This document shows, in pieces, positions 19,275 through 58,219 of a stretch of 64,000 bases of DNA. Both the position numbers and the translations under genes were made by a program. Numbering within the stretch: the first letter of the stretch is position 1; each line of letters starts with the position of its first letter. The stretch comes from Physcomitrium patens (taxonomy: Eukaryota; Streptophyta; Bryopsida; Funariales; Funariaceae), in assembly GCF_000002425.4 (NCBI RefSeq), contig NC_037253.1, positions 3,378,576-3,442,575 of the forward strand, written 5' to 3'. The notes beneath the pieces are model-generated. The model had not been told where the DNA came from and did no database searches. It was given only the letters and a program-made list of their open reading frames with translations.

Positions 19275-20038
19275 TGTGATTACTCGTTTTACTTATTTCA
19301 AATTAATCTAATAGAAATAAACCCATATAAAGGGATTTGAACATGGAAAATGACTAGTTGCTTAAGCATTCACGTTAGGGTTACACAATCAATTATCTCC
19401 TGAATATATCGTCTCTACTTCCAATATCTGAACACATAAGGAAACTATAATCTCCTCCTTCACCTTATCGATTTCTTCCTTACAGCAATTCAGTCATACC
19501 AATAACTGCTATTTCTACCAACATATTCACCCTCATAATCTCTAACTGTAATACTGTGCCCTCACAGCTTTCAGCACACAATTACCCTCATTCCAATTAC
19601 TAGAATTCTTCATACAGAACTGCCATTCATATTACGGTGTTTCACACAAATACACACTCATTCTCTCTACTAAACTACAATCAGATTTCAACATTCAATC
19701 TTTCTTCTTCTCAAATAATACCAATCACATTTCCATTCCATAATTCACTTCACAATATTCAAAAACTTTCAATCTTCTTATTCAAAGAAAATAACAAACT
19801 AAAGAAAAGAGGTAGCACTAAGCTTACCTCGGCTCACAACTGTCACAGCGATGGCACCTTAATTAACTTCTATAACTTCTATATACTTTCTCCTGATTCT
19901 TCAGATTCTAATTGTAATTTTGTAATTAATCACTTTTAATAACTAAATCACCCATCCATCCTCTTAAATTTCTTATTATATGGACTATTAATATATTTTA
20001 TTAATATCTTTCAAAAACAAATTAATATCTATTCTACA
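19275..20038 (-). repeat. 3' LTR of N2
   Basis: 764 bp, TGTGATTA...ATTCTACA. It is 17 bp longer than the other LTR because of one indel near 19330. The polypurine tract inside (AGGAGTGAGGCTA on the - strand) resembles that of N3. Confidence 0.85.
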
Positions 20039-20089
20039 TAGCCTCACTCCTATCTATACAGCGTCCTCGCAAACACTTAATTGATACCT

Positions 20090-20760
20090 ATCTAAAAATT
20101 ATCTAACAAAACTCTACAAAAATTGCGATCTCTTTGGCCTATCTAATTAATCAATTGCTGCAGTATCTGTTATTAGTTCCATCGATTCCAATTTTAACTG
20201 CAAATCTTCATCCTCCTCCAATCCTTCCATCGACTCTTGCCTCAACTGAGCTAAAAGGTCTTCATTGTATTCGCCCAGTTCACGAACTTGAGCTTCCAAT
20301 TTTAGGATCTGGGCATCTTTCAATTCCAACTGGCGCTAAAAGTGACTCTTCTCTTCTAGAACTTCGGGAACTGGCAACGTCGATACTTGTGCTTGACCAA
20401 TATTGAGTAAATCCTCTGCCAATCTTGTCACCTCAGCGTTCAAGGCTTCAATTTCAGTCCTTAACCACTCCACTTGACATCTGTATTGGACACTCAATAC
20501 CAATTTCTTTTGTGCCAATAACTCGGCCTTTTCTCACTCCATTACCAACTGATCCTTTACTTTTTTCAGTTCCAAAATTTAATGACTACGAGCTCGGAAT
20601 AGTTCTTGTCTGTGGATCTCCACCATGCATTCTCTTTCTTTGTCCCAAGCTTCCTATTGTTTCCCAATTTTTTGCTCCAATAGTAGCTTGAATTCCGCAT
20701 TTGTTTGGATGATCCATTCTTGTTCTTCAATTCTTCAGGTCTGCGTTGATATCACTCAAA
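20090..20760 (-). pseudogene. Third-ORF coiled-coil fragments in N2
   Basis: Two open pieces on the - strand (20336-20518 and 20147-20329, about 60 codons each) are rich in Leu, Glu and Gln at heptad spacing, for example VEWLRTEIEALNAEVTRLAE and QILKLEAQVRELGEYNEDLL. They match in position and style the C-terminal coiled coil of the N3 third ORF. More of the same frame is readable with stops up to about 20700. Truncated at its N-terminal side. Confidence 0.6.
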
Positions 20761-21124
20761 ATTGTAACACGAAAAAGAAACAATAACAAAATGCGATACT
20801 TGAGAATGATCGTAAATGGGTGTCCCACTCCTATTCTTTTACTTAATGGTGATAACGACAACATATTACCCCTACTGTCCGTTTCTCACCTCCGTCCCAT
20901 CTGACACATTAGTAATTATGAACTATCCTTTCAGTCGCCTCTACACCCTAACGCACTTAATTAGGTCTATCCTAAGTACATTCGACGTGACTTCCTCCAA
21001 AAATTGAAAATCCATCCTGGATTTTATGTATGATATAACTGTAATCGGTTCCTGTTAATGCGGGTACTGAATCGATGACCCATGAAATCCTCCAATTGAA
21101 CACACCCATTGGAAAACCCTTCAA
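20761..21124. other. Deletion-junction region of N2
   Basis: The part from about 20995 to 21140 matches the end of the integrase gene of N3 (about 31870-32010) and then passes straight into gag. The remainder is low-complexity and codes nothing recognisable. Confidence 0.5.
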
Positions 21125-22708
21125 TCACACGATATGGCCCATTATTTGTGAGGATGAGGGGTATTTTGTTACAGAATGACCGTGGCCCTTACAATTACTG
21201 CACCATACATTGGTCCTAGAATTGGTAGGCTTTTGTCTCTTCTCCTTATCTTTGGCCATATTGACAGCTATTTCTTCCATTTTCTTTGTCAAATTTAATA
21301 ACAAGGTTTCATTGGAATCTTTTAGGACTGGCATTATTGATATCTCTATCGTAGTTAATGCTTGTTGTTGATACGAAAAATATGGAGCATATATTATTGT
21401 CATGTTTGGTGGTATAGCTTGCAATGGGGTGACATTAACTGGCCCCTGAATATTGGTATTGGAATTGGCCCCTGTTTCTAACATCCGTGGATAACTACCC
21501 ACTGATTTATTCCAAGTCAAATTTTGATATCTACCTTGAACTGGAATCATCGTGGCTCCTGCAGTTAAAAACTGATCATAATGACATTCCTCCCAAACCT
21601 TGGCTCTATTAAAGGATGCAACCACCGTAATGGGTTGAGCTTCCTTTACAAACATTTTTAGCTCTAGTAGGTGCAAACAATTGATTAATATGGATAAGAT
21701 AAATGCCTCTGATATTTGGTGATTCGGCCACTTACTAAGTATATCAGCCACTCGGCCATAGTACAATTCCACTGCTTCTTTTAGGATCATTTTACTGTTC
21801 ATTAACCTCTCTCGAAGGCGGTCCTCAAAACCAATTGGTCGAAAATGAGATAGAAATGCATTCTTCAATGCTTCCTAATTCGAAAATTAACCCATTGGTT
21901 GGCGGTTGTATCATTCAAATGTCGTGTCTTTTAAGGTCACTGACAGCCATCGCAACCAAATATCTTCAGTTCTGCCATTATTAGCTACACATGCTGTAAG
22001 AAACTGAGACAAATGTTAATCGAGATCCACATCCAAAAATTCCCAAAAAGTAGGTAGTGGCATGACACTAGTCGTACAATCACCTACTCCACGTATTTGT
22101 ACTGCAATTGGAACGACTGGTCCTCCTGACGCCATTGAATTTCTTGTTCCACTAAACTTCATTTTAAAATAATCTCTGCTTTCCCTTATTCTAATTTTTG
22201 AGCTCTTAGTGCTCCTCGATTTACTATTATTTTTTGTAAATAGTTTTATTGGTTGAATTATAAGTAAAAACGTCAGATTTTGAAATATAATATAGTTATC
22301 TTTATTGGCGACCAATTTGTGCCAATTTGAAGAGCCATTATTGCTCATTTCAGCGGTACCTCCTACTGGAAAAATATCCAATGGAGTACGAAATTCTTCT
22401 ATGCTTCCTTCTCTTTCAATTAATGGCCTCAAGATTTCCACTAAAATATTAATAAAATTTCTCGCAAGTGTTCTTGGCAGTTTTTCTAATGGTACATATG
22501 ATTGCAGAATTAACAGTCTGTCCGGTTTTTGATATATTCGGATGCGCCGACAAGCTTACAACCATGATTTAATCCAATTTTGTTGATGCTTCCTTTTAAG
22601 ATTACATTCTTGCTCCTCTCTAAACAAGTTCCTTCCTTGTGATCTTCCTTGTCTTTCTCTCAACTGATTTATTTTCCTCGATGCAATGCTCTCATTCTTA
22701 TTAATCAT
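21125..22708 (-). pseudogene. N2 gag, broken
   Basis: The start is the Met at 22708 (INKNESIASRK), which matches the N3 gag start. The longest pieces are 22016-22441 (N-terminal region, LPRTLARNF then ILRPLIEREGSIEEF, then TTSVMPLPTFWEF) and 21125-21868 (capsid C-terminal part, KNAFLSHFRPIGFEDRLRER, then VKEAQPITVVASFNRAKVWE, ending in zinc knuckle CSNCKGHGHSVTKC-like with the last Cys replaced by Tyr). Several frameshifts and stops separate them. The C-terminal zinc-knuckle cluster present in N3 is deleted. Confidence 0.7.
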
Positions 22709-22803
22709 AATATTGCTTCAAACAATACTGAAATCATCTTCCATTGCCAATTTTTCCACATGTTTGGTAACTAATTCCTAACACTCAAAGCTATTATCAC
22801 TCT

Positions 22804-22818
22804 CCGACAGTGGCGCCA
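22804..22818 (-). other. N2 primer binding site, tRNA-Asp-like
   Basis: On the - strand, TGGCGCCACTGTCGG lies 3 nt inside the 5' LTR. It differs at two positions from the tRNA-Asp primer site (TGGCGCCGTTGCCGG) that I recall for the plant Athila/Tat group. Confidence 0.7.
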
Positions 22819-22821
22819 AAA

Positions 22822-23568
22822 TGTGATTATTCATTTTACTTATTCTAAATTAATCTAATGGGAATAAACCCGAACACGAGAAATGACTAGTTGCTTAAGC
22901 ATTCACATTAAGGTCATACAATCAATTACCTCCTAAATATATCATCTCTACTTCCAATATCTGAACATACAAGGAAACTATAATCTCCTCCTTTACCTTA
23001 TCGATCTCTTCCTTATAGTAATTCAGTCATACCAATAACTGCTATTTCCATCAATATATTCACCCTCATAATCTCTAACTGTAATACTACACCTTCACAG
23101 CTTTCAGCATACAATTACCCTCATTCTAATCACTGGAATTCTTCATACAGAACTGCCATTCACATTACGGTGTTTCACACAAACACACACTCATTTTCAT
23201 TGAACTACAATCAGATTTCAACATTCAATCTTTCTTCTTCTCAAATAATACCAATCACATTTCCATTCCATAATTCACTTCACAATATTCAGAAACTCTC
23301 AATCCTCTTATTTAAAGAAAATAACAAACAAAAGAAAAGAACTAGCACTAAGCTTACCTCGGCTCACAACTATCACAACGATGGCACTTTAATTAACTTC
23401 TACAACTCCTATATACTTTCTCCTGATTCTTTAGATTTTAATCGTAATTCTATAATTAATCACTTTTAATAACTAAATCACTCATCCATCCTCCTGAATT
23501 TCCTATTATATAGACTATTAATATATTTTATTAATATCTTTCAAAAATGAATTAATATCTATTCTACA
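22822..23568 (-). repeat. 5' LTR of N2
   Basis: 747 bp, TGTGATTA...ATTCTACA, similar along its length to the left copy apart from scattered substitutions and the indel. Confidence 0.85.
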
Positions 23569-26500
23569 AGCAACCATACTTTATCTTCAATTTTGAAAGT
23601 AGGTGCCAGATTCCAAAATTTATCTGCGAACGCCTTGTAAGCTTTTTAGGTAGTTTGTAATTAAAGCTTCAACGTAGTTTCAAGCTCTAATAGTTATTTC
23701 ACAAATCCTTCAGCTGTCGGGTTGTTATTGCTTGTTAGACTCAACAAATCAAGCTTCAGATGATACCCATAGTTGGAAAAGAATGGTGTTTGTTGAATCG
23801 ATGCTTGAAGGATGTTGCTATATACAAACTCGGCTAATGATAGATATGCAGTCTAATTATCTTGCTAATAATTGATACTGCATTGTAAATACTACTCCAA
23901 AGTTTGATTCATCCATTCCGTTTGGTCGTCAGTTTGAAGATGGAAAGCCAAAGAAAGCTTGATATCCATCTTCAATATCTCAAAGAGAGATCTCTAAAAC
24001 TTTGATACGAATTGAATTCCTTAATCCGATAGGTCATCATCTAGTAAACCATGATATCGATACACACTATCAAAGAAGAGCCTTGCTGTGTCTTTGCTTG
24101 ATGATATTTTCTTGCAAGGGATAAAGTGTGTCATCTTTGTAAGTCAATCTACTATAGCAAAGATGCTGTCAAATGAATTCGATGGCGGCACGTCCATAAT
24201 GAAGTCCATGGAAACTGAAGACCATAGCCGACATGGAATAGGCAATGGCTAAAGAAGACCATAAGGACGATGCCGAAGGTTCTTACATCTTAAACATATG
24301 TCACAGGAGAGGACAAAATCCTTGACATCCTTCCATATTTGGAGCCACCAAAAATCTCAGGAAATAAGTTCCAAGGTCTTATTGAATCCAAAATGTCCTG
24401 CAGTTGGAAAGTCGTGTCGAGATTGGAGAACTCGGAGTCGTGCTCATCTCTTTGGAATGTACAATTGCTCCTCAAAGTATAAAAGATCTCATTCCACCTT
24501 GAACTTGTCATTATTGATACATTATATTATATCAAGGGCTACAAAATCTCCAATAGTCGCAGTACATACCTAGTTGAAGAAGTCAGCATTAATTGGTACT
24601 ATAACAGAGCAAAGTCTAAATTTTTTCGACTTCAACAATGTTATACACTGTTGATCAAACGTTGCTTCTCCAACCTTTAGCACTAGATACAATCTCCTTG
24701 ATAATGCATTAGATAGTTCTTGTTTCTTCCGAAGCCGATAAATAATAACAAAGTCAAACTTGAATAGTAACATATTTCATCGAGCTTGATGACAATTCAC
24801 AACCCGAATCGACATGAAGTACTCCAAATTCTTGTGATCTATATATACAACTACTAGATGCGTAGCTCTTTTGAAAAAGTAATGCCACTCTTGGAAAGAA
24901 TCCACTATCACAAGAAGTTCTTTATCGTAGATCTCATAGTTGATCTTGGTAGCAAAAAACTTTCAAGAATAGAACGCAACCGGATGAAGCTTCTTGTCTG
25001 TGCCTATCTACAAAAGTACAGCTCCCATAGCAAAATTTAAAGTATTAGTCTCCAAATAGAAGGCCTTTGCAAAGTTTGGATGTACCAAGATTGGAGCCAT
25101 AGTAAATACCACCTTAAGATCTTTAAATGCTTTTTTCGCTAGAGGTCTCTATTCGAGTTTGTCTTTACATATCAATCGAGTGAACAAAGCAGCAACTTGA
25201 AAATAATTCTTAATGAAGATCCAATAGAAGTTAGCAAAGCCAAGAAAGCATTGTACATCTCTAATCGTCTTTGGAACTTCCCATGATACGATTGCTTCCA
25301 CCTTCTTAGGATCCATCTTAAAGCCTTTTGTAGTTGCAATGAATCCCAAAAATTCCATTTCAGTTTGATTAAACAAGCACTTCTCCAACTTGGCGTAAAG
25401 TCCTTGCTCGTGAAGTTTTTCAAAGACCAGACAAACGTATTTCTCATGCTTTTCTACATTCTTGGAAAATATCAAAATATTATCTAGATAGATAATAACA
25501 AAATCGTCAAGGTGCTTCCAAAAGATATCATTCATCATATGTTGAAAGATCATCAGAGCATTGCTAAGACCGAAAGGTATGACATTATATTCAAAATGGC
25601 CATACCTTGCACGAAAAGCTGTCTTCTATTTGTTTCCTTCCTTGATACACACAAGGTTCTAAGCTCCCCATAGATCAATCTTTGTAAAGATCCTTGCATG
25701 CCCAAGTTGCTCTAGAAGACCTGATATCAAGGATAATGGATAATGATTCTTCTTTGTCACCTTGTTGAGACCTCGATAATCCATGCACATCCGTAGCAAG
25801 CCATCTTTCTTCTTCACAAATAAGATTAATGCCCCAATTGGTAATTTTGAATGACGAATGAAGTTCTTGGCTAGATTCTCGTCAATGTCCTTATATAACT
25901 CCGCTAATTCCATCTGCGATAAATTATAAATTAGGCCAAAAGGTGGTTGTGCTCCTTCCTATAAGTCTATGGTACAATCGTATGGTCGATGCTCCAGTAG
26001 CATGTTGGAATTTTTCTTTTGAAACACGTCTTCAAAATCCTTATATTGCTCTGGTATATTTGCTGTCAAAATCTTCTCTACGCTAGTTGGAGTCGCATAA
26101 ATGATAAACGGTGTCCCTTCCTTGGACGATGTTACAAACGCTCTTGCTCCAATAAATAAGGATTTTTTTATTCGGGATCTTCTAATAGGCTTATTCTCGG
26201 AATGCTCTATAGGAAATGTCATCCTTTATAATCTCCAATCTATGGATGGATTATACATTTCTAATTAAGAAAGACCAATAATAACAAGGTTTGACGGGGT
26301 TCTATTAATATTGAAAATAATATAACTACTATGGTCTTTAAACGTCACCTCTATAGGTTTTTATTCATGAGTGATACTACTAGACAATAAAGGTTGTCCA
26401 TCTATTACTTCTATGTGAACCGGTTTAGGTTTCCACACTAAAAGAATCTTGTGATGCTTAGCAAATTCTTTGTTTAAAAAGCAAGCTGATGCTCTTGAAT

Positions 26501-29114: not shown

Positions 29115-29152
<38 letters not shown>

Positions 29153-29158
29153 CATGTG
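29079..29158. repeat. TA/TG microsatellite, left half
   Basis: TATATA with CATGTGTGTGTATGTATG interruptions. It ends ATGTG, the N3 target duplication, and matches in type the microsatellite at 45437-45736, so N3 probably split one array. Confidence 0.9.
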
Positions 29159-29934
29159 TGTGGTTGATCGTTTTACTTATTCCAAAAGAAACCTCCCAGA
29201 ATAAACTTGTATAGGGGAATTCGAATACGGGGAGTGACTAGTTGCTTAAGCGTTCATGTTGGGGTCACACAATTAATTACCTCCAATGTATCATCTCTAT
29301 TTCCATTGTCTAAGCACACAAGGAAACTATAATCTCTCTTTTCACCTTATCAATCTCTTCCTTACAAGAATTCAATCATATCAATAACTATTATTTCTAC
29401 CAATATATCTTCACTCTTATAATCTCCAACTGTAATACCGCAACATCACAGCTTCAGCACACAATTACCCTCATTCCAATTACTGGAATTCTTCACACAG
29501 AACTACCATTCACATTATAGTGTTTCACACAACCACAGATTCACTCTTTCTGCTGAACTACATTCAGATTTCAACATTCAATCTCTCTTCTTTTCATTCA
29601 ATAACATATAATTCCAATCACACTTTCATTCCATGATTCACTTCACAATATTAAGAAACTCTCAATACTCTTATTTCAAAGAACATAACAACAAAAGAAA
29701 AGAGGTAGCACCAAGCTTACCCCGGCTCACACTATCACAGTAATGGCCATTTCTTCCTCTCTCTCATCCTCCTTATCCTACCACGAGATACCAACTGCTA
29801 CATCTCTAATGAAAACTGCTTTTCCTAACTATTCATCCATTTTAACTACTAAACTACCTTTCCAACAGTCATATATCCCTGTTTACACTATAAACTAAGT
29901 ATCTACAAATGAGCAAATAACTACTTATTCTACA
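29159..29934 (-). repeat. 3' LTR of N3
   Basis: 776 bp, TGTGGTTGATCG...ATTCTACA. The polypurine tract just inside is AGGAGTGGGGCTA on the - strand. Confidence 0.9.
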
Positions 29935-30146
29935 TAGCCCCACTCCTAACTTTGCAGCGTCCTCGCAAACAACCAGTTCGAAACAAGAACTGATGACTCC
30001 TTAGCATTGCCCATACTCATAGCTACTGATTACAATTCTAAAGTCACTTCTTCGTCTTCTCCGTCTGATACATTTATTAGTACTATGTTCAATTTGGCCG
30101 TTAAATCTTCATTAAGTGCTCCCAATTCACGGACTTGGCTTTCCAA

Positions 30147-31628
30147 TTACAGAATTTGAGTGTCTTTTGTCTCTAATTGGTATTGTTGTTGCTTCACCTC
30201 CTGTTCCAATTTGCCAATTGAACCTTCAATTGACCCTTGTGGCCGTCGAATGCTGACCAATTCTTCCTCCAATTTCTTTGCAACCTCCTTTAGAGTGTTG
30301 ATCTCTCCTTGCATTTTTTCTGTTTTCACTCCGAATTGGTCACTCATTGTCTTCTTTTCCTGTTCCAAAGTCGCCATCTTCGTCTGGTTCAATTCCAATT
30401 GTTGCTTCATTTTCTCAACTTCCAGTTTCAATTGATTGAGAGAATTGGAGAGTTCTTGTTTCTGATGCGCCATTCCTTGGTGAAGGCGCTCTCTTTCTTT
30501 TTCCCATGCTTCCTGTTTTACTCCAAGGGCATGCTCCACTCTCGAATTGGCTTCTTTGGTGGCCCTATTCACCTGATCTTGTTCCAACAGTTTTTGACGT
30601 TGTTCTGCCATCTCCCTCTTACACGCCACCAATTGCTGCTTAAAATTCGTGTGATCAACCAATTCGTTTGCCGTCTTTTGTAATTGAAATAATTGCACCA
30701 AAAATCGCTCTTTCACACTGTTCTCCTCTGGTGTTCGATGTTGAATGTCCACTGGCCTATTGTCTCTCTGAACCATTGGACCCCTCTCCCAAACACTGAT
30801 TGGTTCTTCCGCCTGCTGGCTTGTTTCTCCTAGTCCCCATGGAAGTGCCAATAAATTGCTCCTTGGTTTTGGTAGTACTGGAGCTGCTATCGTCTTCCCT
30901 TTCTCCGACAACGGTTGACTCAACTCATAAACTATTGCAGACTGTATATAATTGGAACACAGAAGCGTTGCAATTCTACCTGACCTGTGCTTGTAACTCA
31001 ACTCTGCATGAATTCTGGTGGCCACGTACGCTGCCCAATTGAACACCATACCCTTGAAGGAGCCTATTGTCGCATATAATAATCGTTTAGCCATATACAT
31101 CGTATGTCTATTTAATCCCAACCTCTTCTGAATGAAGCGCATCCACTCCATCAATTCTGATATAAGTACATCTACCGTCCCCCATCCTTGATTCCTTTCT
31201 AGCGGCGTCATACCTCCTTTAAAATAACTCCCCGGATTGAAGTCTGAAGACTCTTCTGCGCCAACTGCTAACTCTCCTATTAGTAACTGTAATGCCTTAT
31301 GCAAGGTATTCTCATCAATTCCCAAAGTCCTCTCTTTTACAACACTCGAACCATCCTCAGGATCATAGTTCGTCAAGTATTCTTCCAATAGTTCTACATC
31401 GATTGATGGTAAATTGTCTACCGCTCGTAGAAAAGGATATAGTTGTGCACTTCTAAAGTCCTTCTGCCGCGTTGCATTCCAGCAAATTTCTAACCGCATG
31501 GATTCCATATTTGTGAGTATACAAAGAGAAAGCTCATCCATATTACTCCTTGACCTCACCCTTCTACCCTCTTCTTCCTTCTCAGAGGCTCTCTTCACCT
31601 TCTCCCTTGACATTATAAAGCTCTGCAT
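30147..31628 (-). CDS. N3 third ORF, coiled-coil protein of unknown function
   Basis: 493 codons uninterrupted on the element's own strand, between integrase and 3' LTR, the position of the env-like ORF of Athila. Residues 1-30 are charged and basic (KRASEKEEEGRRVRSR, possible nuclear signal). Residues about 35-235 look globular, with conserved-looking TNYDPEDGSSVVKERTLGID, WGTVDVLISELMEWMRFIQK and ATIGSFKGMVFNWAAYVATR. Residues about 310-493 are a long coiled coil rich in Gln, Glu, Lys and Leu. I see no signal peptide and no membrane segment, so it is not an obvious envelope protein. Remnants occur in N1 and N2. It is the longest clean frame of N3 outside RT. I do not recognise the family. 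Confidence 0.7.
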   Translation of the reverse strand: MQSFIMSREKVKRASEKEEEGRRVRSRSNMDELSLCILTNMESMRLEICWNATRQKDFRSAQLYPFLRAVDNLPSIDVELLEEYLTNYDPEDGSSVVKERTLGIDENTLHKALQLLIGELAVGAEESSDFNPGSYFKGGMTPLERNQGWGTVDVLISELMEWMRFIQKRLGLNRHTMYMAKRLLYATIGSFKGMVFNWAAYVATRIHAELSYKHRSGRIATLLCSNYIQSAIVYELSQPLSEKGKTIAAPVLPKPRSNLLALPWGLGETSQQAEEPISVWERGPMVQRDNRPVDIQHRTPEENSVKERFLVQLFQLQKTANELVDHTNFKQQLVACKREMAEQRQKLLEQDQVNRATKEANSRVEHALGVKQEAWEKERERLHQGMAHQKQELSNSLNQLKLEVEKMKQQLELNQTKMATLEQEKKTMSDQFGVKTEKMQGEINTLKEVAKKLEEELVSIRRPQGSIEGSIGKLEQEVKQQQYQLETKDTQIL

Positions 31629-31899
31629 ATTCGCACTAATACTATGATTTGCTGTGAACTCTCCACTAACGAACTATGCTTCAACAATTCTAGACAAAAT
31701 ACTAAAGGCAGCTACACAGAGTGCCCCTCTCCTAACTGTTTAACTAGTTATGAAACAAGAATCCCTAATCTTAATTGCTGATGTTCTAATACACTAATCA
31801 ACCACTGTCATTTGCCTCCGATTAGACACTTATGATGGCAGGCAAGTCATCATGAACGGCACGTCTGCCCCCTCTAATCTTGATAAACCCGCCCCCGGA
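31629..31899. other. N3 segment between integrase and third ORF
   Basis: No gene. It holds the leader of the third ORF on the - strand, and no promoter motif that I can support. Confidence 0.5.
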
Positions 31900-32868
31900 T
31901 TTATGTATAATACAGGCGTAGTCGGTTTCCATTGATACGGGTTGTGAATTTGGTTCCCGTGAAATCTTCTAATTGGACGGAACCATTGAGAAAGGCTGCC
32001 AATAAGCGATAGGGTCCATGCCACCGAATTTAAAATTTTCTCAGAAAATTGTAAAAATGGCTGTCGTACAGCAGAACAAGATCATTGGGCATAAATGATT
32101 TTGTGCGGAGTTTACTATCGTAATAACTCTTTCGGCGGCGCTGAATAGCTTCCATGGTCATCAAAGCCAAAGCCCTAATCTCATCCAATTTTTCCAATTC
32201 TGTTAACCGATATTGGAGAGATTCTTTGTACCCAACCGTTCTTCCAATGCAATTCTTAAACTAGGAACCTCCAATTCTATTGGTAAGATGGCCTCCTGCC
32301 CGTATACCAATTGAAAAGGTGTGGAATTGGTCGTTACTTTATACGCAGTTCGATATGCCCACAATGCTGCAAATAATTTAGTATCCCAGTCGGTTCCCAC
32401 TCTTGAAATAGTCTTTGTTAAGATTTTACATAGGATACCGTTGGTCTTTTTGGTCTGCCCATTGGCATGTGGATGATAAGGGGTAGTTTTTTGATGCTTG
32501 ATCTCATACTTCGTTGTCAATGCTTCAATGGTTACATTAACAAAATAGATTCCTCGATCACTAATCAATTCTTTCAGAAAACCAAAACGAGTGATAATGT
32601 ATAAAAATGTTGCTACAGTAGTGGCATTATCAGTTTTTGTTGCCATAGCCTTCGCCCATTTGGTGACATAATCGGTGGCTACTAAAATATAACGTTTTTG
32701 TCCATTTCGAGAAGCAAGTGCAATTGGTCCGACGAAATCAATACCCCATTTTTCGAATGGTGCTTGCACCAAAACTGGTACCAATGGCATTGCAGAAGTT
32801 TCAGTAGGTCGACCAATTCGTTGACAAGGGTCACAACGACGAACATATTTGTGAGCATCCGAAAACAT
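31900..32868 (-). pseudogene. N3 integrase, frameshifted, catalytic Glu to Lys
   Basis: Open from 32868 to 32203: CDPCQRIGR (zinc-binding end), GIDFVGPI (first Asp), ISDRGIYF (second Asp) and YGQEAILPIELEVPSL. The third catalytic residue is Lys (AAA at 32449-32451 in GQTKKTN) at D-35-E spacing. A frameshift near 32220 moves the rest into other frames; one stop follows near 32030, then GTKFTTRINGNRLRLYY, the usual C-terminal end for chromodomain-less integrases. The zinc-binding His pair lies upstream, beyond a stop at 32892. Confidence 0.8.
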
Positions 32869-32891
32869 TGTTAGCCACTAATAACCAGCCA

Positions 32892-34682
32892 TTAAAGCTT
32901 TATGCACGGTGCTATCACCCGCAAATGTCCTCTACAGCTATCCAAATGACATCCTTCCAATATGGTACACACTTCACTTGGAAATATGCAATGTCGTAAA
33001 ATACCATCCCGTCCTTGTTTGTATAATGCGGCTCCAATCATGGTATACGGCGCACTTCTTATAATCAGACGCTTCTTTAATTTTTCATTATAAGAAATTG
33101 AAAAAGTTTGAAATGTGAGATATTGGATCCGGTCACCATATTTGGGTGTAATAACCTCTACAGCAAATAATTGTGCATCCAGAAGGGCGTCGTTTATCGG
33201 CTCATTACCCAGTATATTAGATAAACGGGACAAGTGATCTGCATTGGCATGTGTCTTGCTAGGGCGAACATTAATTGTAAAATTAAATTCATGAAGAAGT
33301 AACACCCAGCAAGCAATTTGTCCGCTCAATTGGGGTTTATTTATCATATACTTAAGCACATCATGATCAACGTGGAATACAAATGGGTAGCCCAGTAGAT
33401 AATGGCCGAATTTCTGTACAGAATAAATCATGTCGAGGGCTTCTCGTTTGGTAGTATTATAATTGCGTTCGACCATAACCAATTGTCGACTCGCAAAATA
33501 TATCGGATGATCATGGTTATTGTCATCCTTCTGACTCAATATTGATCCAATCGTGACGTTGGATGCATCGACATAAACCTGAAATGGTTTTGTCCAGCAT
33601 GGGGCAACCAGTATTGGTACAGACACCAATTTTTGCTTTAAGGCCTCAAACGCAACACTGCATTCTGCCGTCCAAACGGGACTAGATCCATCCAATAGTG
33701 GTTTCTTTAGCAAATTTGTCAATGGCTGACATAGTACCGCAAAGGAGTGAATAAAACGCCGATAATAGCTGACATGGCCCACAAAGCCATGTACTTCTGA
33801 CACCATTTTTGGCTTTGGTAAAGCCAATATTCGAGTTACTTTATCTGGGTCCGTAGCAATACCGTAGCTGGACACTATGTGGCCCAAGACTCTTCCAGAG
33901 GGGACCCCAAATTGATACTTCTCTGAATTCAACGATATACCATACTTATCGCATTGGTCCAGACATCGTCCCAGGCAGTTCAAATGATCGGCTGTCATAC
34001 TGAACGTGCAAAAATCATCTAAGAATATTTCCATTGACACTCGTAAATAATCTTGAAAGGCCTGTGTCATCACTCTTTGAAATGTGGCTGGTGCATTGCA
34101 TAATCCAAATGGCATCACTTTGTATGCATATATACCCCAATCTGTCGTAAAAGTAGTCTTGGACTGATCTTCCTTGGTAATTTTGACTTGATTGTAACCC
34201 GAAAAACCATCCAAAAATGAATAACATTCGTGTCCTGCTACGGCATCCAATATACTGTCCGTAAAAGGTAGAGGAAAATAATCCTTCTTGGTAGCAGCAT
34301 TGAGTTTCTGAAAATCTTGACAGATTCTAATCTTGTCATTTTTCTTAGGTACCATTACCATTGGTGAGACCCATTCGCTATACGGAACCAGATAAATGAA
34401 TCCCACGCACAATAATTTGTCCAATTCCTCCTTTACTATCAAAGAATATTTTGGGTTGAGACAGTGTGGTCTTTGACGAACTGGTGTAGCATTCGAAACC
34501 AATATAATATGATGTTCACACACCGTTTCTAGAATATCCTTCGGATCTGCATACGTCCAAGCAAAGGACGATTTATGTTGGAGGAAGAATGCTTTTCACT
34601 GACTCAATTCGTTACCTTGAATACCCTTCTTTATCTTTATATTTTGGGGCACGTCAGGGTGCTTAAGTTCATAGTCTGGAAA
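32892..34682 (-). pseudogene. N3 reverse transcriptase and RNase H
   Basis: Open from 34523 (543 codons): RT fingers (PKKNDKIRICQDFQKLNAAT), palm (MPFGLCNAPATFQRVM), catalytic FLDD in MEIFLDDFCTF, tether, then RNase H (VYVDASNVTIGSIL, REALDMIYSVQKFGHYL, HADHLSRL) and the start of the integrase zinc domain (CHLDSCRGHL). RT and RNase H keep their catalytic acids as far as I can see. It extends to 34682 (SFAWTYADPKDI upstream), where C3 interrupts the polyprotein; the protease side resumes at 41074. Disabled by the insertion and by the stop at 32892. Confidence 0.85.
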
Positions 34683-51220: not shown

Positions 51221-51940
51221 GTTTACTAATGTCATCGTAATTTCGATAATGCCCCTTGATTAGCTCTTTATTCATTATTAGATTTTTTTAGAATAATATT
51301 AATGTTCATTTGTTTGTTTAACAGATACGATTTTGTGTATTAAAGTCTTTGTTGTATTTAGTGGCAATCGATTTTAATTTAGACTAAAATTATTAGTTAT
51401 TGTTAGACATATCAAATATATTGAGTTTAGTTTTAAAATAATAGTGTTAATTTAGAATAATTAAGAACAAAATTAGTGTCAAAGCTTTTAATATCATCTA
51501 AATATTTTTAAAATATTATTAGTTTTTTAATATAACAAATAACTCAAGTATTTTCTTAAGTATAATTTGTATGTCCAAATTTTCATCAATTATATTCAAT
51601 CATATATTTATAATCTTTATTAGAGTTTATATGGAGTTGAAAAGAAATTTATTTTAAGAAAGAGATGAATTTTAAAAAAAAATAAAATAGTATTTCTATA
51701 CTATTTAATAATTTATATGACAAGAATTCATATTAATATCTATGACAAGAATTTTTATTAATAATAGATAAAAAAATAAGATAGTTATAATAAGTAGAAG
51801 CTTATTACATTTTTTCAAAATTCTACATGAAGACCAATTTGTAGCTTTTCACTATAAATCTACTTCTTGTAAATAAAGAAGATGTTAATATTATAGTTAA
51901 TAAAGTTTAGGGTTAAAAAATATATATACACATTATTTCA
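51221..51940. other. AT-rich spacer, nothing recognised
   Basis: Low-complexity AT-rich DNA with no supported coding or structural feature. Confidence 0.5.
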
Positions 51941-52206
51941 TATCAAAGACATGAATCACAAAGAACCAAAGGATCAATATACAATCACCTTCTATCACTT
52001 AAACATGGAAGATAATCACTCAAAGATGGTATAATATTAAGACTAGAATGGCTATTGCCGAAGACAAAAAGATTGAAGACTCTTGAAACAAGACTAAGAA
52101 CTAAGAAAGCATTGACAAGAGGTAATAAGGCTTCATTCTTGCCTTATCATATGTACTATCTAATTACAAGGAACTTTTAAGACATGTGTCTAATTAGCAA
52201 GATAAG
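51941..52206 (-). repeat. Older chromovirus LTR, left part, split by C4
   Basis: TATCAAAGACATGAATCAC and then GACTAGAATGGCTATTGCC follow the C3/C4 LTR with many substitutions. It continues at 58220 after C4. The start corresponds to TGTCA with a G-to-A change. Confidence 0.7.
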
Positions 52207-52736
52207 TGTCAAGGACAAGAACTCGATGAAAGCTAAAGAGTAAGTGAGACTTTTCTCAAAAAGAAATAGGACAAAATAGAAATATGTATATTAAGAAAGA
52301 AACTGGAATGGCTATTGCCAAAATACAAGAAAACTAGAGACCCTTGAAACTAGACTAGAAGCAAGAAAGGAGTTGACAAGAGTGAAGAGGGCTTCACTCT
52401 TGCCTCTATATATACTATCTAACTAGAAGCCACGTGGCGATGTTCTATAAGACCTCCAATATATGTTGACTTTCTAGGCCACATGCCTTTGCTTGCAAGG
52501 CAAGTTTTCTATGGATGGACCACGTAGTTAGCTTGTTCTTTAAGCTTCCAACATGCGTGGCACATGGCTAACTTGTTGACCAAGTTTCTAACCTAAAAGT
52601 CAACTATAGACTCCTATAAAGTCAAAGCAGCGTCTATGAAGCTTCTAAGAAGCTTCTCTAGAAGATATTACACAATTAACCTACTTTTACATACTTTTAT
52701 CTATTCATATAGGTAATTATATGTATGTCCGTGACA
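52207..52736 (-). repeat. 3' LTR of C4
   Basis: 530 bp, TGTCA...TGACA. The 11-bp inverted repeat is at 52377-52402. The polypurine tract inside reads AGAAGGGGGGGTAA on the - strand. Confidence 0.94.
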
Positions 52737-52777
52737 TTACCCCCCCTTCTAGGGACGAGTTCCACGAGGAGCGGTGA

Positions 52778-52946
52778 TTATATATTGAGAAAATCTAATA
52801 TGCGGCGAATTGTATTTGCTACATACTCTGATCTTTGTTCTCTTCGAAGATAGTTGATGGGTCCTCTTAGCCATCGATAGTGTCCCATTCCAGGGCGAGA
52901 AGACCACCCTGTTATTTGATCACTGTTGAGGCCTTCATAACTTCCT
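52778..52946 (-). pseudogene. C4 accessory ORF, C-terminal fragment
   Basis: The last 55 codons or so remain open: GSYEGLNSDQITGW, then YRWLRGPINYLRREQRSEYV, ending LDFLNI-stop at 52778. About 310 bp, including the start codon, are missing relative to C3, joined at CTTCC/CTCAA with two or three bases of microhomology. Confidence 0.65.
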
Positions 52947-52975
52947 CAATCTTTTCTCTTTTATAAGGGAGGTTT

Positions 52976-55900
52976 TCATCTTGGTTTTGATGGATGTCGT
53001 TGATGAAAAACTTTGACTTTAGCTGATGCATTTGCTAGATTCCTGGATGGCTCCCATGTGCGCTCACTAATATCATATCCGCACCAATGAACAAGATATT
53101 CCAGCTTATTTCGGTGCCGCCTTGAGTCTAATATCTCTTCCACCTCAAATTCTTCATTATTATCTACTTCTATAGGAGGTGGTGGCATTTGTCTTCTTCC
53201 TTGTATATCCACTGTCTTATATGGTTCAAGAAGAGACACGTGGAATACAGGATGGATCTTCATTGACTCCGGTAGATGTAACCGATATGCAACTGGGTTG
53301 ATCTGTTCAGAAACAGAAAAGGGGCCAAGCCTACGATAGTCCAATTTGTCACAAGGTCGAGTGGTCTTGATACTGCGACGAAGTAGCCATACCTTATCAC
53401 CCACGTTGAGTTGTGGTTGCTCTTTACGATATACATCTGCATTTATCTTTTGTCGTTCTTGAGCTTTCTTCAACTGCGCCTTCATTATTGCATGTAACTC
53501 TGACAACCGATTTGCCATATCTTCTGCTGTAGGATTATCAACTTTTGAAAAATCAAAAGTATCAAGTCGTGGATGATAGCCATAATTGGCAAAGAAAGGT
53601 GTTTGTTGCGTGGAGGAATGTACCGTATTATTATAAGCAAACTCTGCCAATGGCAGAAGGTTTGTCCAATCATCTTGTTGGTAGTTGATAGTACACCTTA
53701 AATATTGCTCCAAGACTTGGTTTAGGCGCTTTGTTTGTCCATCAGTTTGAGGATGGAAAGCCGAAGATAGCTTTATGTCCACTTTTAAAATCTTGAAAAG
53801 AGTCCTCCAAAATCTCGACACAAATTGAGTTCCCCTATCCGATATGATATCTTTAGGCAATCCATGATAGCGATAGATATTATCAATGAAAAGCTTAGCT
53901 GTTTCTTCACCTGTGATAGATTTTGTACATGGCATAAAATGTGCCATCTTGGTGAAACGATCTACTATCACAAATATAGAATCATAAGATCTTGAGTTTG
54001 AAAGATCTGTGATGAAATCCATAGAAACAGAAGACCATGGTTGTTCTGGTATAGGTAATGGCTGAAGAAGTCCATAAGGTCGATGTCGAGGAATTTTTGA
54101 TCTTGAACAAATATCACATGATTGTACAAAGTCTTTGACTGACTTCCACATTTGTGGCCACCAAAAATCTCTTGATATGAGTTCCAAAGTCTTATTATAT
54201 CCAAAGTGCCCTACTGCTGGAAAGTCATGACGTGCTTGAAGAACACGCAAACGTGCTTTTCCTTCTGGAACATATAGGCGTCCTTCAAAATATAATAGAT
54301 TATTCTTGAACTCGAACTTAGAAGAATCATGAGACTTGGAAGAATTATTCTCGATATCATGAACAAGAGGGTCTGAGGACATACTGGACTGGATTTGCTT
54401 GAGAAAAGTTGAATCAACAGTCAATGTTGATTTCACTGCTCGGAGATGAAATTGCTCCGGTTTCAAGAGGACCGTTCTTTGTTGCTCAAAAGCTGCATCT
54501 CCTTCTTTTGGTGCAAAATAAGAACGTCTAGACAGGGCATCGGACAAACCTTGTTGTTTTCCTGGCCGATAAGTGATAATGAAGTCGAATCTTGACAAAG
54601 ACATACTCCAACGAGCTTGACGACGATTCAACACGCGTGCTGACATGAAATACTCGAGGTTCTTGTGATCTGTATACACAATGACTGGACTAGAAGCACC
54701 TTCTAGATAATGACGCCATTCTTGAAAAGAATCCACGATTGCAAGAAGTTCTTTATCGTGGATATCATAATTGATCTCGGCTGCTGAGAATTTTCTTGAA
54801 TGAAAAGCTATCGGATGAAGTTTGTCATCTGTTCCCATTTGTGATAAAACTGCACCCAAGGCAAAATCCGATGCGTCTGTTTCCATAAAAAATGCCTTGG
54901 AAAAGTCAACACGATATAAGACTGGTGCAGAGACAAACGATGTCTTCAAGGCTTCAAATGCTGCTTCCGCTTCTTGATTCCATTAAAATTTATCTTTACT
55001 AGTCAAGCGTGTAAGTGGAGCTGCAACTCGTGAGAAGTCTTTGATGAAGATCCGATAGTAATTGGCAAATCCCAAGAAACATTGGACATCTCTTACAGTC
55101 TTTGGAATCTTCCATTCCATGATTGTTTGGACTTTCTTAGAATCCATCATAAGACCATCATTTGAAATGATGTATCCTAAAAAGTCAACTTGAGTAGTGT
55201 GAAATACACACTTTTCCATCTTGGCGTACAATCCTGCATCTCTAAGTTTTTGTAATACTTGACGAACATGTATTTCATGTTCTTCAACATTCTTAGAATA
55301 AATCAGGATATCGTCTAGGTAGCAGACGACAAAATTGTCTAAGAATTCACGAAATACATCATTCATGAGATGTTGAAAAGCAGCTGGTGCATTCGTGAGT
55401 CCAAAAGGCATGACATTATATTCAAAATGCCCGTACCTGGTTCGAAATGCAGTCTTCCATTCATCTCCTTCTTTGATCCGTACTAGATTATATGCTCCTC
55501 TTAGATCTATTTTTGTATAGATCTTAGCTTAATTTAACTGGTCAAGGAGTCCTGATATCAAAGGTAATGGATACCTGTTCTTGATTGTGATCTTGTTGAG
55601 TCCTCGATAGTCAATACACATTCGTAAAGATCCATCTTTTTTCTTTACGAATAGAATTGGAGCTCCTACTGGAGATTTTGAATGGCGTATGAAATTCTTC
55701 GCTAAATTCTCGTCAATATATGTCTTGAGTTCAGCCAACTCATCTTGCGATAAACTGTAAATTGGTCCAAATGGTGGCTGAGTTCCTTCCTTGAGATCGA
55801 TTGAACAATCGTATGGGCGATGCTCAGGAAGAATATCTACATTCTTTTTCTCAAAAACGTCTTGATAATCTTGATATTGACTTGGAATGCCACTTGAAGT

Positions 55901-56497
55901 CTTTACGCTTTCAGAAATAGGTGCAGCATAAATAGCAAAAGTTGATCCTTCTTTTGCTGCATGTATAAATGCTTTTGTACCTATAGGTGCCAGTTTTACT
56001 ATACTAGACTCATGGTTTTTTACTTGGTTAATAGAACTGTTACTAATGCTCTGAGGAAAAACAAGTTTACGAGAAATCCAATCTATTCGAGGATTATACT
56101 TTTCTAACCATGATAAGCCTAAAATTACTGGATTAGAGGGAGATCTAATTATATTAAAAATTATGCAACTACTATGACCATTTATTACTACATCTACAGG
56201 AAGTGTTTCGTGAGTTACATCTCCAGAAGACAACGGACGACCATCTATGACTTCTACGTGTACAAGTTTAGTTTTTTGTATTTATGATATTCTATTACAT
56301 CTAGCAAATTCTTCATCTAAAAAACAAGATGAGGCTCCTGAATCTACCAAGGCAGAGGCTTTGTAATTATTAGGTCCTAAACGCACATCTATTATAAAAC
56401 AAGGAGATGGTTCTGAGGAGAAGATAGGACCTTTATTAGAAGTTGTACAAGATTCCAGCCGCACGGTCCCTATTGTAGCTGGACGTACTCGTTTTCC
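52976..56497 (-). pseudogene. C4 pro-pol with chromodomain, three nonsense codons
   Basis: Protease (56464-56282, ALVDSGASSCFLDEEFA), linker and RT fingers (56233-55529, [20 protein letters not shown]), RT palm (55411-54983, [12 protein letters not shown]), then 657 open codons (54949-52976) with RNase H (METDASDFALGAVLSQ, YTDHKNLEYF), integrase (zinc domain GHFGYNKTLELI...CDICSR, SMDFITDL, ISDRGTQF) and chromodomain (LEYLVHWCGYDISERTWEPS). Stops: 56282-56284 (protease), 55529-55531 (TAA for CAA in C3) and 54983-54985 (TAA for CAA in C3). The third integrase catalytic residue is Lys (AAG, 53729-53731). Otherwise the best preserved pol in the window. Confidence 0.92.
56454..56497 (-). promoter_or_regulatory. 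Candidate -1 ribosomal frameshift signal, C4
   Basis: Same layout as in C3: G GAA AAC in gag frame (56491-56497), 7-nt spacer (56484-56490), stem TCCAGCT (56477-56483) with GGCTGGA (56454-56460), one U-G pair, gag TAG at 56470-56472 in the loop. The P-site slip is less favourable than in C3. Confidence 0.5.
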
Positions 56498-57477
56498 GAC
56501 ATACTGTCTTCTTTGACAGCCGTACTCCTCATTTTGTAGTTACGTCGCTTCTTTGGACAATGTTGAGCAGTGTGCTTAGGTTCTCCACAATATAAGCACA
56601 ATCCTTCTTGTCGACGACGAGACTTTTCTTGCTCAGTAAGAGGTTTGAAACGTACCGCATCAATTTGCATATCCTCTACTTCTGAAGGTATGTGTTGAGG
56701 AGACGTCGGTGTTGCCATTGAATTGTAGTAACGTTGAGGCCCACTTGTGCGACTCTCGGATCGAAATTCAAAAAGTCGATTGTCGCACTTCACAGCAAAG
56801 TCAATTGCTTGACTCAATGTTTGAGGATCAGGTAAATTAAGCATCAATTTCTTTACCTCATATTGTAATCCGTAGAAAAATTGACTCACAAGTGCGGCAT
56901 CATCCCACTTGATATCAGTTGCAAGTTGTCGAAATTGCGAAGAATATAATGTTACTGATCGATTGCCTTGTTGCAAAATACGGATCTTGTTGGTTGCAAC
57001 ACGAATTGCATCATGTTCTCCAAACATGGATCGAAACTCCGCCAAAAAAGCCTCCAGATTATCCAATATTGGATCTCGTCGTTCAAGAAAAGATGAAAAC
57101 CATGACAATGCTGAACCTGAAAGAAGTGTACCAATGAATCTTACTTGTGACCCTGGAATTGGATAGCTCTGGGGTTGAAGTTCAATCACTAGTTGGACCT
57201 GATTGATGAATCCTCGAAACTTGGATCTGGTACCATCAAACTTCTCGGGCAAGGCAACTCTCGGTTCTCTAACACTCGAAGGGTGTTCCATTCTGGGAGA
57301 AGGGACATGGTTTGGTGCAGATGTTGAAGCAGCCCCAATCATCTCTATATCTTCACTTCCTACCATTCTTGTTGCTCCTTGTGGTGGTAAATTGAGTTGA
57401 TGCATCGCAAGCATTAACTCCCTCAATTGTTCTTGCATCTGTGCCATTGCACTCTTCATTTCAACAAGCTCTGCCAT
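56470..57477 (-). CDS. C4 gag, intact
   Basis: 335 residues. N-terminal short coiled coil (AELVEMKSAMAQMQEQLREL), then the retrotransposon capsid domain (LPEKFDGTRSKFRGFINQVQ, WFSSFLERRDPILDNLEAFL, FGEHDAIRVATNKIRIL), then a zinc knuckle CLYCGEPKHTAQHC (C-x2-C-x4-H-x4-C) and a basic tail (KKRRNYKMRS). It is the only fully open gag here, and ends VQLQ-stop like C3. It forms virus-like particles in the family. The start at MAELVEM is shared with C3. Confidence 0.9.
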   Translation of the reverse strand: MAELVEMKSAMAQMQEQLRELMLAMHQLNLPPQGATRMVGSEDIEMIGAASTSAPNHVPSPRMEHPSSVREPRVALPEKFDGTRSKFRGFINQVQLVIELQPQSYPIPGSQVRFIGTLLSGSALSWFSSFLERRDPILDNLEAFLAEFRSMFGEHDAIRVATNKIRILQQGNRSVTLYSSQFRQLATDIKWDDAALVSQFFYGLQYEVKKLMLNLPDPQTLSQAIDFAVKCDNRLFEFRSESRTSGPQRYYNSMATPTSPQHIPSEVEDMQIDAVRFKPLTEQEKSRRRQEGLCLYCGEPKHTAQHCPKKRRNYKMRSTAVKEDSMSENEYVQLQ

Positions 57478-57676
57478 AGTAGCACTTAGAAAAGAGAAGA
57501 TGTCTAATAACGCTCAAAACAAATAGAAGAGAGGAATTGATAACAAAGAAAATACTAAGAACAATATCAGTTTAAAAGAGGGTAATCCGCAACTTCTAAT
57601 GCGCTTATGTCTTATCAAGAAAAAGGGGTAATCCACTCTTAATCAAGAAAAGACAAAGCTCTCATATTGTAAGTGT

Positions 57677-57687
57677 ACTCTTGTCAA
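57677..57687 (-). promoter_or_regulatory. C4 self-primer binding site
   Basis: TTGACAAGAGT on the - strand begins 2 nt inside the 5' LTR and is perfectly complementary to ACTCTTGTCAA (57856-57866). The A at 57866 is 32 nt below the first T of the TATA box. Confidence 0.65.
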
Positions 57688-57689
57688 TC

Positions 57690-58219
57690 TGTCAAGGACA
57701 AGAACTCGATGAAAGCTAAAGAGTAAGTGAGACTTTTCTCAAAAAGAAATAGGACAAAATAGAAATATGTATATTAAGAAAGAAACTGGAATGGCTATTG
57801 CCAAAATACAAGAAAACTAGAGACCCTTGAAACTAGACTAGAAGCAAGAAAGGAGTTGACAAGAGTGAAGAGGGCTTCACTCTTGCCTCTATATATACTA
57901 TCTAACTAGAAGCCACGTGGCGATGTTCTATAAGACCTCCAATATATGTTGACTTTCTAGGCCACATGCCTTTGCTTGCAAGGCAAGTTTTCTATGGATG
58001 GACCACGTAGTTAGCTTGTTCTTTAAGCTTCCAACATGCGTGGCACATGGCTAACTTGTTGACCAAGTTTCTAACCTAAAAGTCAACTATAGACTCCTAT
58101 AAAGTCAAAGCAGCGTCTATGAAGCTTCTAAGAAGCTTCTCTAGAAGATATTACACAATTAACCTACTTTTACATACTTTTATCTATTCATATAGGTAAT
58201 TATATGTATGTCCGTGACA
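57690..58219 (-). repeat. 5' LTR and promoter of C4
   Basis: 530 bp. TATA box near 57889-57899, inverted repeat at 57860-57885, predicted RNA start near 57866. Confidence 0.94.

Follow-up and report, generated by a model that had tools for sequence, protein, structure and literature searches.

In the retrotransposon Tf1 the first 11 nucleotides of the RNA anneal to the primer binding site (PBS), and the RNA is cut behind nucleotide 11 to prime reverse transcription (PMC7175516, PMC10085805). Priming and cleavage are described there as shown by experiment, whereas both are predicted here for the C4 element and its family. A Tf1-like self-priming has also been proposed for Tcn1 of Cryptococcus neoformans (PMC7175516), an element of a fungal host that we liken to C4 by its description. 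For plants, Neumann et al. (2019, PMC6317226) predicted self-priming in most Tcn1-clade chromoviruses of mosses and clubmosses and in the copia TAR lineage, so the statement in the first-pass annotation of this locus that no plant element had been described in this way does not hold. The TAR lineage (Houba, Osr-1) resembles C4 in that its members are plant LTR elements with proposed self-priming (PMC6317226). It belongs to Ty1/copia, unlike C4, whose pol is of the Gypsy type. The pol of the TAR lineage is distant from that of Gypsy elements. Elements of Physcomitrium patens have been placed in the Tcn1 clade (Novikova et al. 2010, PMC2864245), P. patens LTR-element chromodomains have been assigned to a Tcn1-type group (PMC3350952), and an aromatic cage is reported in 95% of Tcn1 chromodomains, confined to non-seed plants (PMC6317226). 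The account of SM-Tcn1 of Selaginella reports neither tRNA priming nor self-priming (PMC2864245), and a primer sequence, a spacer, covariation and a U3/R hairpin are all absent from the text available on the clade (PMC6317226, PMC2864245).

The window analysed here is the whole 64,000-nucleotide stretch of P. patens contig NC_037253.1. P. patens as the host agrees with a 23-nt primer for its gene YAN (PMC5908804), which has exact matches at 2 sites of the genome, against 0 for the reversed primer. The principal features of C4 within the window are as follows.

52207-58219, minus strand: whole C4 LTR element, with an LTR pair, gag and pol
57690-58219, minus strand: C4 5' LTR, 530 bp, TGTCA...TGACA, identical to the 3' LTR, target site duplication CTTAT
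52207-52736, minus strand: C4 3' LTR, 0 differences from the 5' LTR
57890-57897, minus strand: TATA box of the C4 5' LTR, first T at 57897
56470-57513, minus strand: C4 gag frame, Retrotrans_gag / Ty3_capsid
52976-56281, minus strand: C4 pol frame, three pieces split by in-frame stops, with RVT_1, RNase H, H2C2, rve, SH3_Tf2-1 and a chromodomain

The LTR edge is certain, since the two 530-bp LTRs do not differ at any position and a 5-bp duplication, CTTAT, borders the element on either side. RVT_1, rve, Chromo and SH3_Tf2-1 in the pol frame score above the Pfam cut-offs, and the first pol piece has no Pfam match. C4 is a young yet broken copy, with two in-frame stops in pol despite its identical LTRs; a database protein 98% identical to the last pol piece is listed as a single 1136-aa chain, and a longer open pol frame therefore exists outside C4. 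An old, decayed LTR of C4's own family at 51900-52206 of the window hosts the C4 insertion (duplication CTTAT). Old LTRs resembling this host had been considered as a third family, and the 13 parsed of the 14 fetched proved to be of the decayed type of C4's own family; two of the 13 (L078, L083) retain a PBS remnant. Further LTR-like repeats and Gypsy-type gag/pol frames of other families were seen by eye at 19300-23520, 29150-34595 and 42870-45250 of the window.

The elements that matter for priming are a short complementary pair in C4 and the same pair in a second element of the window, C3.

57677-57687, minus strand: C4 self-primer binding site TTGACAAGAGT, read from 57687 to 57677
57688-57689, minus strand: 2-nt spacer GA between the C4 LTR end and the PBS
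57856-57866, minus strand: C4 self-primer ACTCTTGTCAA, predicted RNA nucleotides 1-11 at the predicted start of R
40500-40510, minus strand: C3 PBS TTGACAAGAGT
40688-40698, minus strand: C3 self-primer ACTCTTGTCAA

On the minus strand the C4 5' LTR terminates in ..CCTTGACA (..TTGACA at 57690), followed by GA and then by TTGACAAGAGT, which is a perfect 11/11 complement of ACTCTTGTCAA in C4 and in C3. The first-pass annotation had claimed this pair in both elements, with its sequences, its coordinates and the 2-nt distance of the C4 site from the LTR, and all of this was confirmed; its figure of 32 nt between the first T of the TATA box and the first base of the primer (57866) is corrected here to 31 nt. 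The spacing is the same in C3, where the spacer is also GA and the LTR has diverged from that of C4 outside the pair. In neither C4 nor C3 do the 25 nt that follow the LTR contain a complement to the LTR longer than 11. A complement of at least 11 to the 26-nt start-site zone arose in 3 of 2000 dinucleotide shuffles for C4 and likewise in 3 of 2000 for C3, the shuffled string being the 25 nt after the LTR, whose shortness makes the test conservative; against the LTR, 2 of 500 shuffles were as good for C4 (530 nt) and 5 of 500 for C3 (543 nt as taken, which misses roughly the first 18). Folding of the predicted RNA from 57866 placed nucleotides 1-11 on the PBS with modelled pair probabilities of 0.6-1.0.

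With Tf1/sushi elements C4 thus shares a chromodomain, SH3_Tf2-1 and the pairing of the first 11 RNA nucleotides, as predicted for C4, with a PBS beside the 5' LTR (PMC7175516, PMC10085805, PMC4600332). The Tf1 'pretzel' consists of three duplexes, of which the central one is predicted here, whereas the side duplexes of C3 and C4 do not rise above shuffles. Six elements were computed: side duplexes were no better than shuffles in C3, C4, L070 and L087, and the downstream one was weakly better in L061 and L069. In an alignment of the C4 chromodomain to CDY-type chromodomains, F, W and Y are kept in the columns that we take to form the aromatic cage, which is accordingly present. The features shared with the Tcn1 clade, as published, are a non-seed plant host, an aromatic-cage chromodomain, predicted self-priming and the absence of a tRNA-type PBS. 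These likenesses suggest that the C4/C3 family, hereafter family A, is a Tcn1-type relative of Tf1/sushi. C3 and C4 probably belong to RLG1, the abundant chromodomain Gypsy family of P. patens, an assignment made on abundance and the chromodomain. RLG1 is described as the most abundant P. patens element and as expressed in protonema (PMC7466625).

The conservation of the pair was followed through the genome (470.4 Mb, 101 contigs), where the pattern TGACAGA-N11-ACACTTAC gave 1720 matches and its reversed control none; exact TTGACAAGAGT stands in 85 of the 100 matches listed, all on one contig. Of the 30 copies selected solely on their PBS flanks, 19 show Watson-Crick pairing at 11/11 positions, 4 deviate by G-U only and 7 carry true mismatches, and among 30 chosen by similarity to C4 the pair is perfect in 29. 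Taken together, the comparison across family copies that the first-pass annotation had proposed gives a perfect pair in 48 of 60 family A rows and one or two changes in the remaining 12; the 60 rows represent 59 distinct places, since L005 and L050 are both C4, and include C3. No compensated change was seen inside family A. Changes are present in 11 of the 30 copies selected on their PBS flanks and would be accounted for by decay after insertion; family A alone is therefore no proof of covariation.

A protein search with a diverged reverse transcriptase at 25149-25625 of the window led to a second family, family B, in 10 stretches of 7 copies and then 20 more; L065 could not be parsed, and L070 and L085 are the same place. 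Its 5' ends read ..CCGTGACA, spacer GT and PBS TTGTCGAGACT, and its R starts with AGTCTCGACAA, so that the pair differs from that of family A at 3 of 11 positions, all three compensated. The spacer is GT in all 26 parsed rows, the primer lies 32 nt from the TATA box in the 4 rows measured, and all 11 pairs are Watson-Crick in 23 of 26 rows (22 of 25 distinct places), or standard in 24 of 26 when G-U is admitted. By eye, both families have two occurrences of a GGATTACCCC-like motif on the downstream side of the PBS (57500-57640 of the window; 1285-1420 of L063).

A scan of prokaryote genome records added 44 contaminant contigs with related pol, in bins named Trichormus and Synechococcales, and we take these elements to be eukaryotic contamination. 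The motif TGACAGNTTG, picked after the contigs had been viewed, is present in six of the 44, and all six have a TATA box, a primer and a 2-nt spacer, with the TATA box 31-33 nt before the primer A; 4 of 880 shuffled contigs passed the same test. The pair is AAGGCGAACAA/TTGTTCGCCTT in L107, L108 and L110, and the primer is AAGGTGAACAA in L127, AGTCTCGACAA with one extra paired C ahead in L120, and the 12-mer ACTCTTGATCAA in L109. L111 was left out of the counts, as it has an 11-nt pair and a 2-nt spacer without a TATA box and with the two members only 61 nt apart. Every case found has a 2-nt spacer and a start 31-33 nt from the TATA box, and when R was matched to a foreign PBS across lineages the mean fell to 7.1 of 11 pairs (range 4-11). 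This covariation of primer and PBS between lineages is the strongest evidence, at the level of sequence, for self-priming. A 50-row RT-INT tree, which held no named Tcn1, Tf1 or seed-plant reference and for which L120 was too short, joins the moss element with L107, L108, L109, L110 and L127 in a supported clade (99/97) of open internal order. In the contigs L105-L110, L127 and L120, the elements resemble Tf1/sushi and share 53-72% identity with the moss pol across the matched portion. A gag search of viral contigs gave 4 pattern matches and a pol alignment 66 matches, none of them a relative. The Trichormus bin may derive from a fern symbiosis; if so, self-primed elements would extend beyond moss and clubmoss.

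The transcript start is predicted to fall on 57866 or no more than one or two bases away, judging by the distance from the TATA box, the C-A start dinucleotide and the point where the complementarity ends. The complement stops at the A equivalent to 57866 in 60 of 60 family A rows; it extends one base (C:G) past this A in 13 of the 26 rows of family B, as it does in L120, so that pairing alone leaves the start unfixed to the base. Tf1/sushi self-priming, as the first-pass annotation had proposed it, is well supported by the geometry, by the covariation between families and by the lack of a TGG in C3 and C4, with the transcript start still a prediction. The competing view, that a tRNA or tRNA fragment primes elsewhere and the 11-nt match is due to chance or another role, could appeal to a TGG within 30 nt of the LTR in 2 of 26 family B rows (L063, L069), which lies about 24 nt in and does not adjoin the LTR. 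No TGG of a tRNA-type PBS occurs within 30 nt after the LTR in C3 or C4, a published survey describes most Tcn1 elements as lacking a tRNA-type PBS (PMC6317226), and primer and PBS covary in several lineages; we consider tRNA priming very improbable.

The primer has a further partner. The first-pass annotation was right that it pairs with the PBS and overlooked that it also forms half of a hairpin at the U3/R junction.

57858-57887, minus strand: U3/R inverted repeat of the C4 5' LTR, 13 bp with one G-U, 4-nt loop
57875-57887, minus strand: 5' arm of the C4 hairpin, located in U3 and mimicking the PBS
57858-57870, minus strand: 3' arm of the C4 hairpin, holding R nucleotides 1-9
52375-52404, minus strand: the same inverted repeat in the C4 3' LTR, where U3 and R would both be in the RNA
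40690-40719, minus strand: C3 U3/R inverted repeat, 13 bp perfect, loop GCTT

Across the hairpin-bearing elements the U3/R junction forms a hairpin of 12-13 bp with a 4-nt loop. The U3 arm, GACAAGAGTGAAG in C3 and GGCAAGAGTGAAG in C4, pairs over 13 bp with CTTC and R nucleotides 1-9, and its first 9 nt repeat the core of the PBS within U3. Elsewhere the arm is GTCGAGGCTGAAG (family B) or GTTCGCCTTGGT (L107), each fitting its own R. In six forms, arm and own R make 8-9 of 9 standard pairs, against a mean of 4.9 across lineages (range 2-9, n=26), and arm and R covary over four R sequences. Of the 60 family A rows, 56 have standard pairs at all 13 positions, as do 21 of the 26 rows of family B. 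The G-U pairs of the C4 type, family B and L120 are stable, and the folding z of the hairpin ranges from -3.6 to -6.1 over the 6 elements folded, all of which are negative. The U3 arm of family B carries a C to T change in L067, L091 and L097; in L067, R also has G to A, with the hairpin kept via a G-U step. L067 retains the hairpin pair and has lost the PBS pair at R2. Additional, weaker inverted repeats occur in the LTRs of C3 and C4, and four other LTR-like repeat stretches in the window yielded a single overlapping 11-nt palindrome.

Over 30 family A copies, mean diversity is 0.062 in the U3 arm, 0.040 in R1-11 and 0.035 in the PBS, and 0.263 in the loop; the background is 0.083 in R12-60, 0.105 in U3 near the TATA box and 0.18-0.23 in the remaining LTR. 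Diversity is lower than in the hairpin arms both in the TATA box, which is invariant, and in the sequence immediately beyond the PBS, and among 647 windows of 11 nt the PBS ranks about 71st, R about 79th and the U3 arm about 167th, in an order inferred from the means. The hairpin arms are thus conserved, but not exceptionally. In computed energies, net binding of PBS to R is -10.4 to -15.9 kcal/mol without the U3 arm and 0 to -7.0 with it in the 8 of 8 hairpin-bearing elements tried, L110 not being among them. In L109, which has no hairpin, adding U3 moves the value from -16.6 to -14.3 kcal/mol. L109 self-primes by the test applied to the contaminant contigs, and the hairpin is absent from L111 as well; therefore, with L111 counting if it too is self-priming, the hairpin is not required. 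A hairpin of this kind matching the primer looks undescribed: none was found in a literature that was open access with few subscription papers, including the stem-loop and hairpin parts of PMC3601003 and PMC10085805. For Tf1, which we liken to C4 by its description, the available text of PMC7175516, PMC10085805 and PMC4600332 does not mention a U3/R hairpin.

Tf1/sushi-type self-priming in the C4/C3 family, with the U3/R hairpin as a proposed lock, is the explanation that we favour, with a probability of roughly 0.8. Built on the observed sequences, geometry and covariation, the scheme that we infer runs from transcript start through cleavage and priming to hairpin function. The RNA would begin at or near 57866, its first 11 nt would fold back onto the PBS 2 nt past the 5' LTR, cleavage behind nucleotide 11 would follow, and the 11-nt fragment would then prime minus-strand DNA; integrase would trim the 2-nt spacer. 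Where both co-occur in an RNA, the PBS mimic in U3 would pair with R nucleotides 1-9 and 3-4 U3 bases. Because U3 is missing from the RNA 5' end, the hairpin is confined to the 3' LTR or to RNAs begun too far upstream, and it may lock R at the genome 3' end and in such RNAs, leaving the PBS to the correct 5' end. We propose only tentatively that this start-site lock is a proof-reading device for RNA-primed reverse transcription, which blocks the 3' primer copy from invading the PBS and is kept by three-way covariation of U3, R and PBS.

Self-priming could be right and the hairpin could still serve 3' end formation, as a structure of the 3' LTR only that marks R for the poly(A) machinery. The hairpin is whole only in RNA that includes U3 as well as R, and its stem is conserved with a free loop, as such a role would have it; why the U3 arm should copy the PBS and change with R in several lineages is not explained by 3' end formation beyond a need for pairing, and we judge this role unlikely, if with a real share of the probability. 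A related question is whether the inverted repeat acts as DNA, as a promoter palindrome that forms a cruciform or a symmetric protein site. Its position between the TATA box and the start site, conserved along with both, would suit a promoter element, and a general remark in PMC3601003 holds that LTR promoters often involve hairpin structure. Pairing is nevertheless kept while the sequence varies between lineages, and the stable G-U pairs of the C4 type, family B and L120 fit RNA better than duplex DNA, which makes a DNA-level palindrome distinctly improbable.

Fold-back synthesis is known to give rise to inverted repeats, and the U3 arm might on that ground lack a function, as a side product of reverse transcription that folds back on itself and is regenerated by chance. 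Copies of family B and L120 keep one and the same G-U pair, which means that the arm is not copied anew in each cycle, and there is little chance in our estimate that it is such a side product.

Self-priming in plant elements has rested on predictions in the published accounts consulted, and our analysis gives for it, in a family of high copy number in a model plant, a primer, a spacer and a likely start site, with covariation across lineages. If the hairpin works as proposed, it would answer a question common to self-priming elements, namely how the right primer is used when the genome carries its sequence twice. If the family is RLG1, its expression in protonema (PMC7466625) would make a direct test possible.
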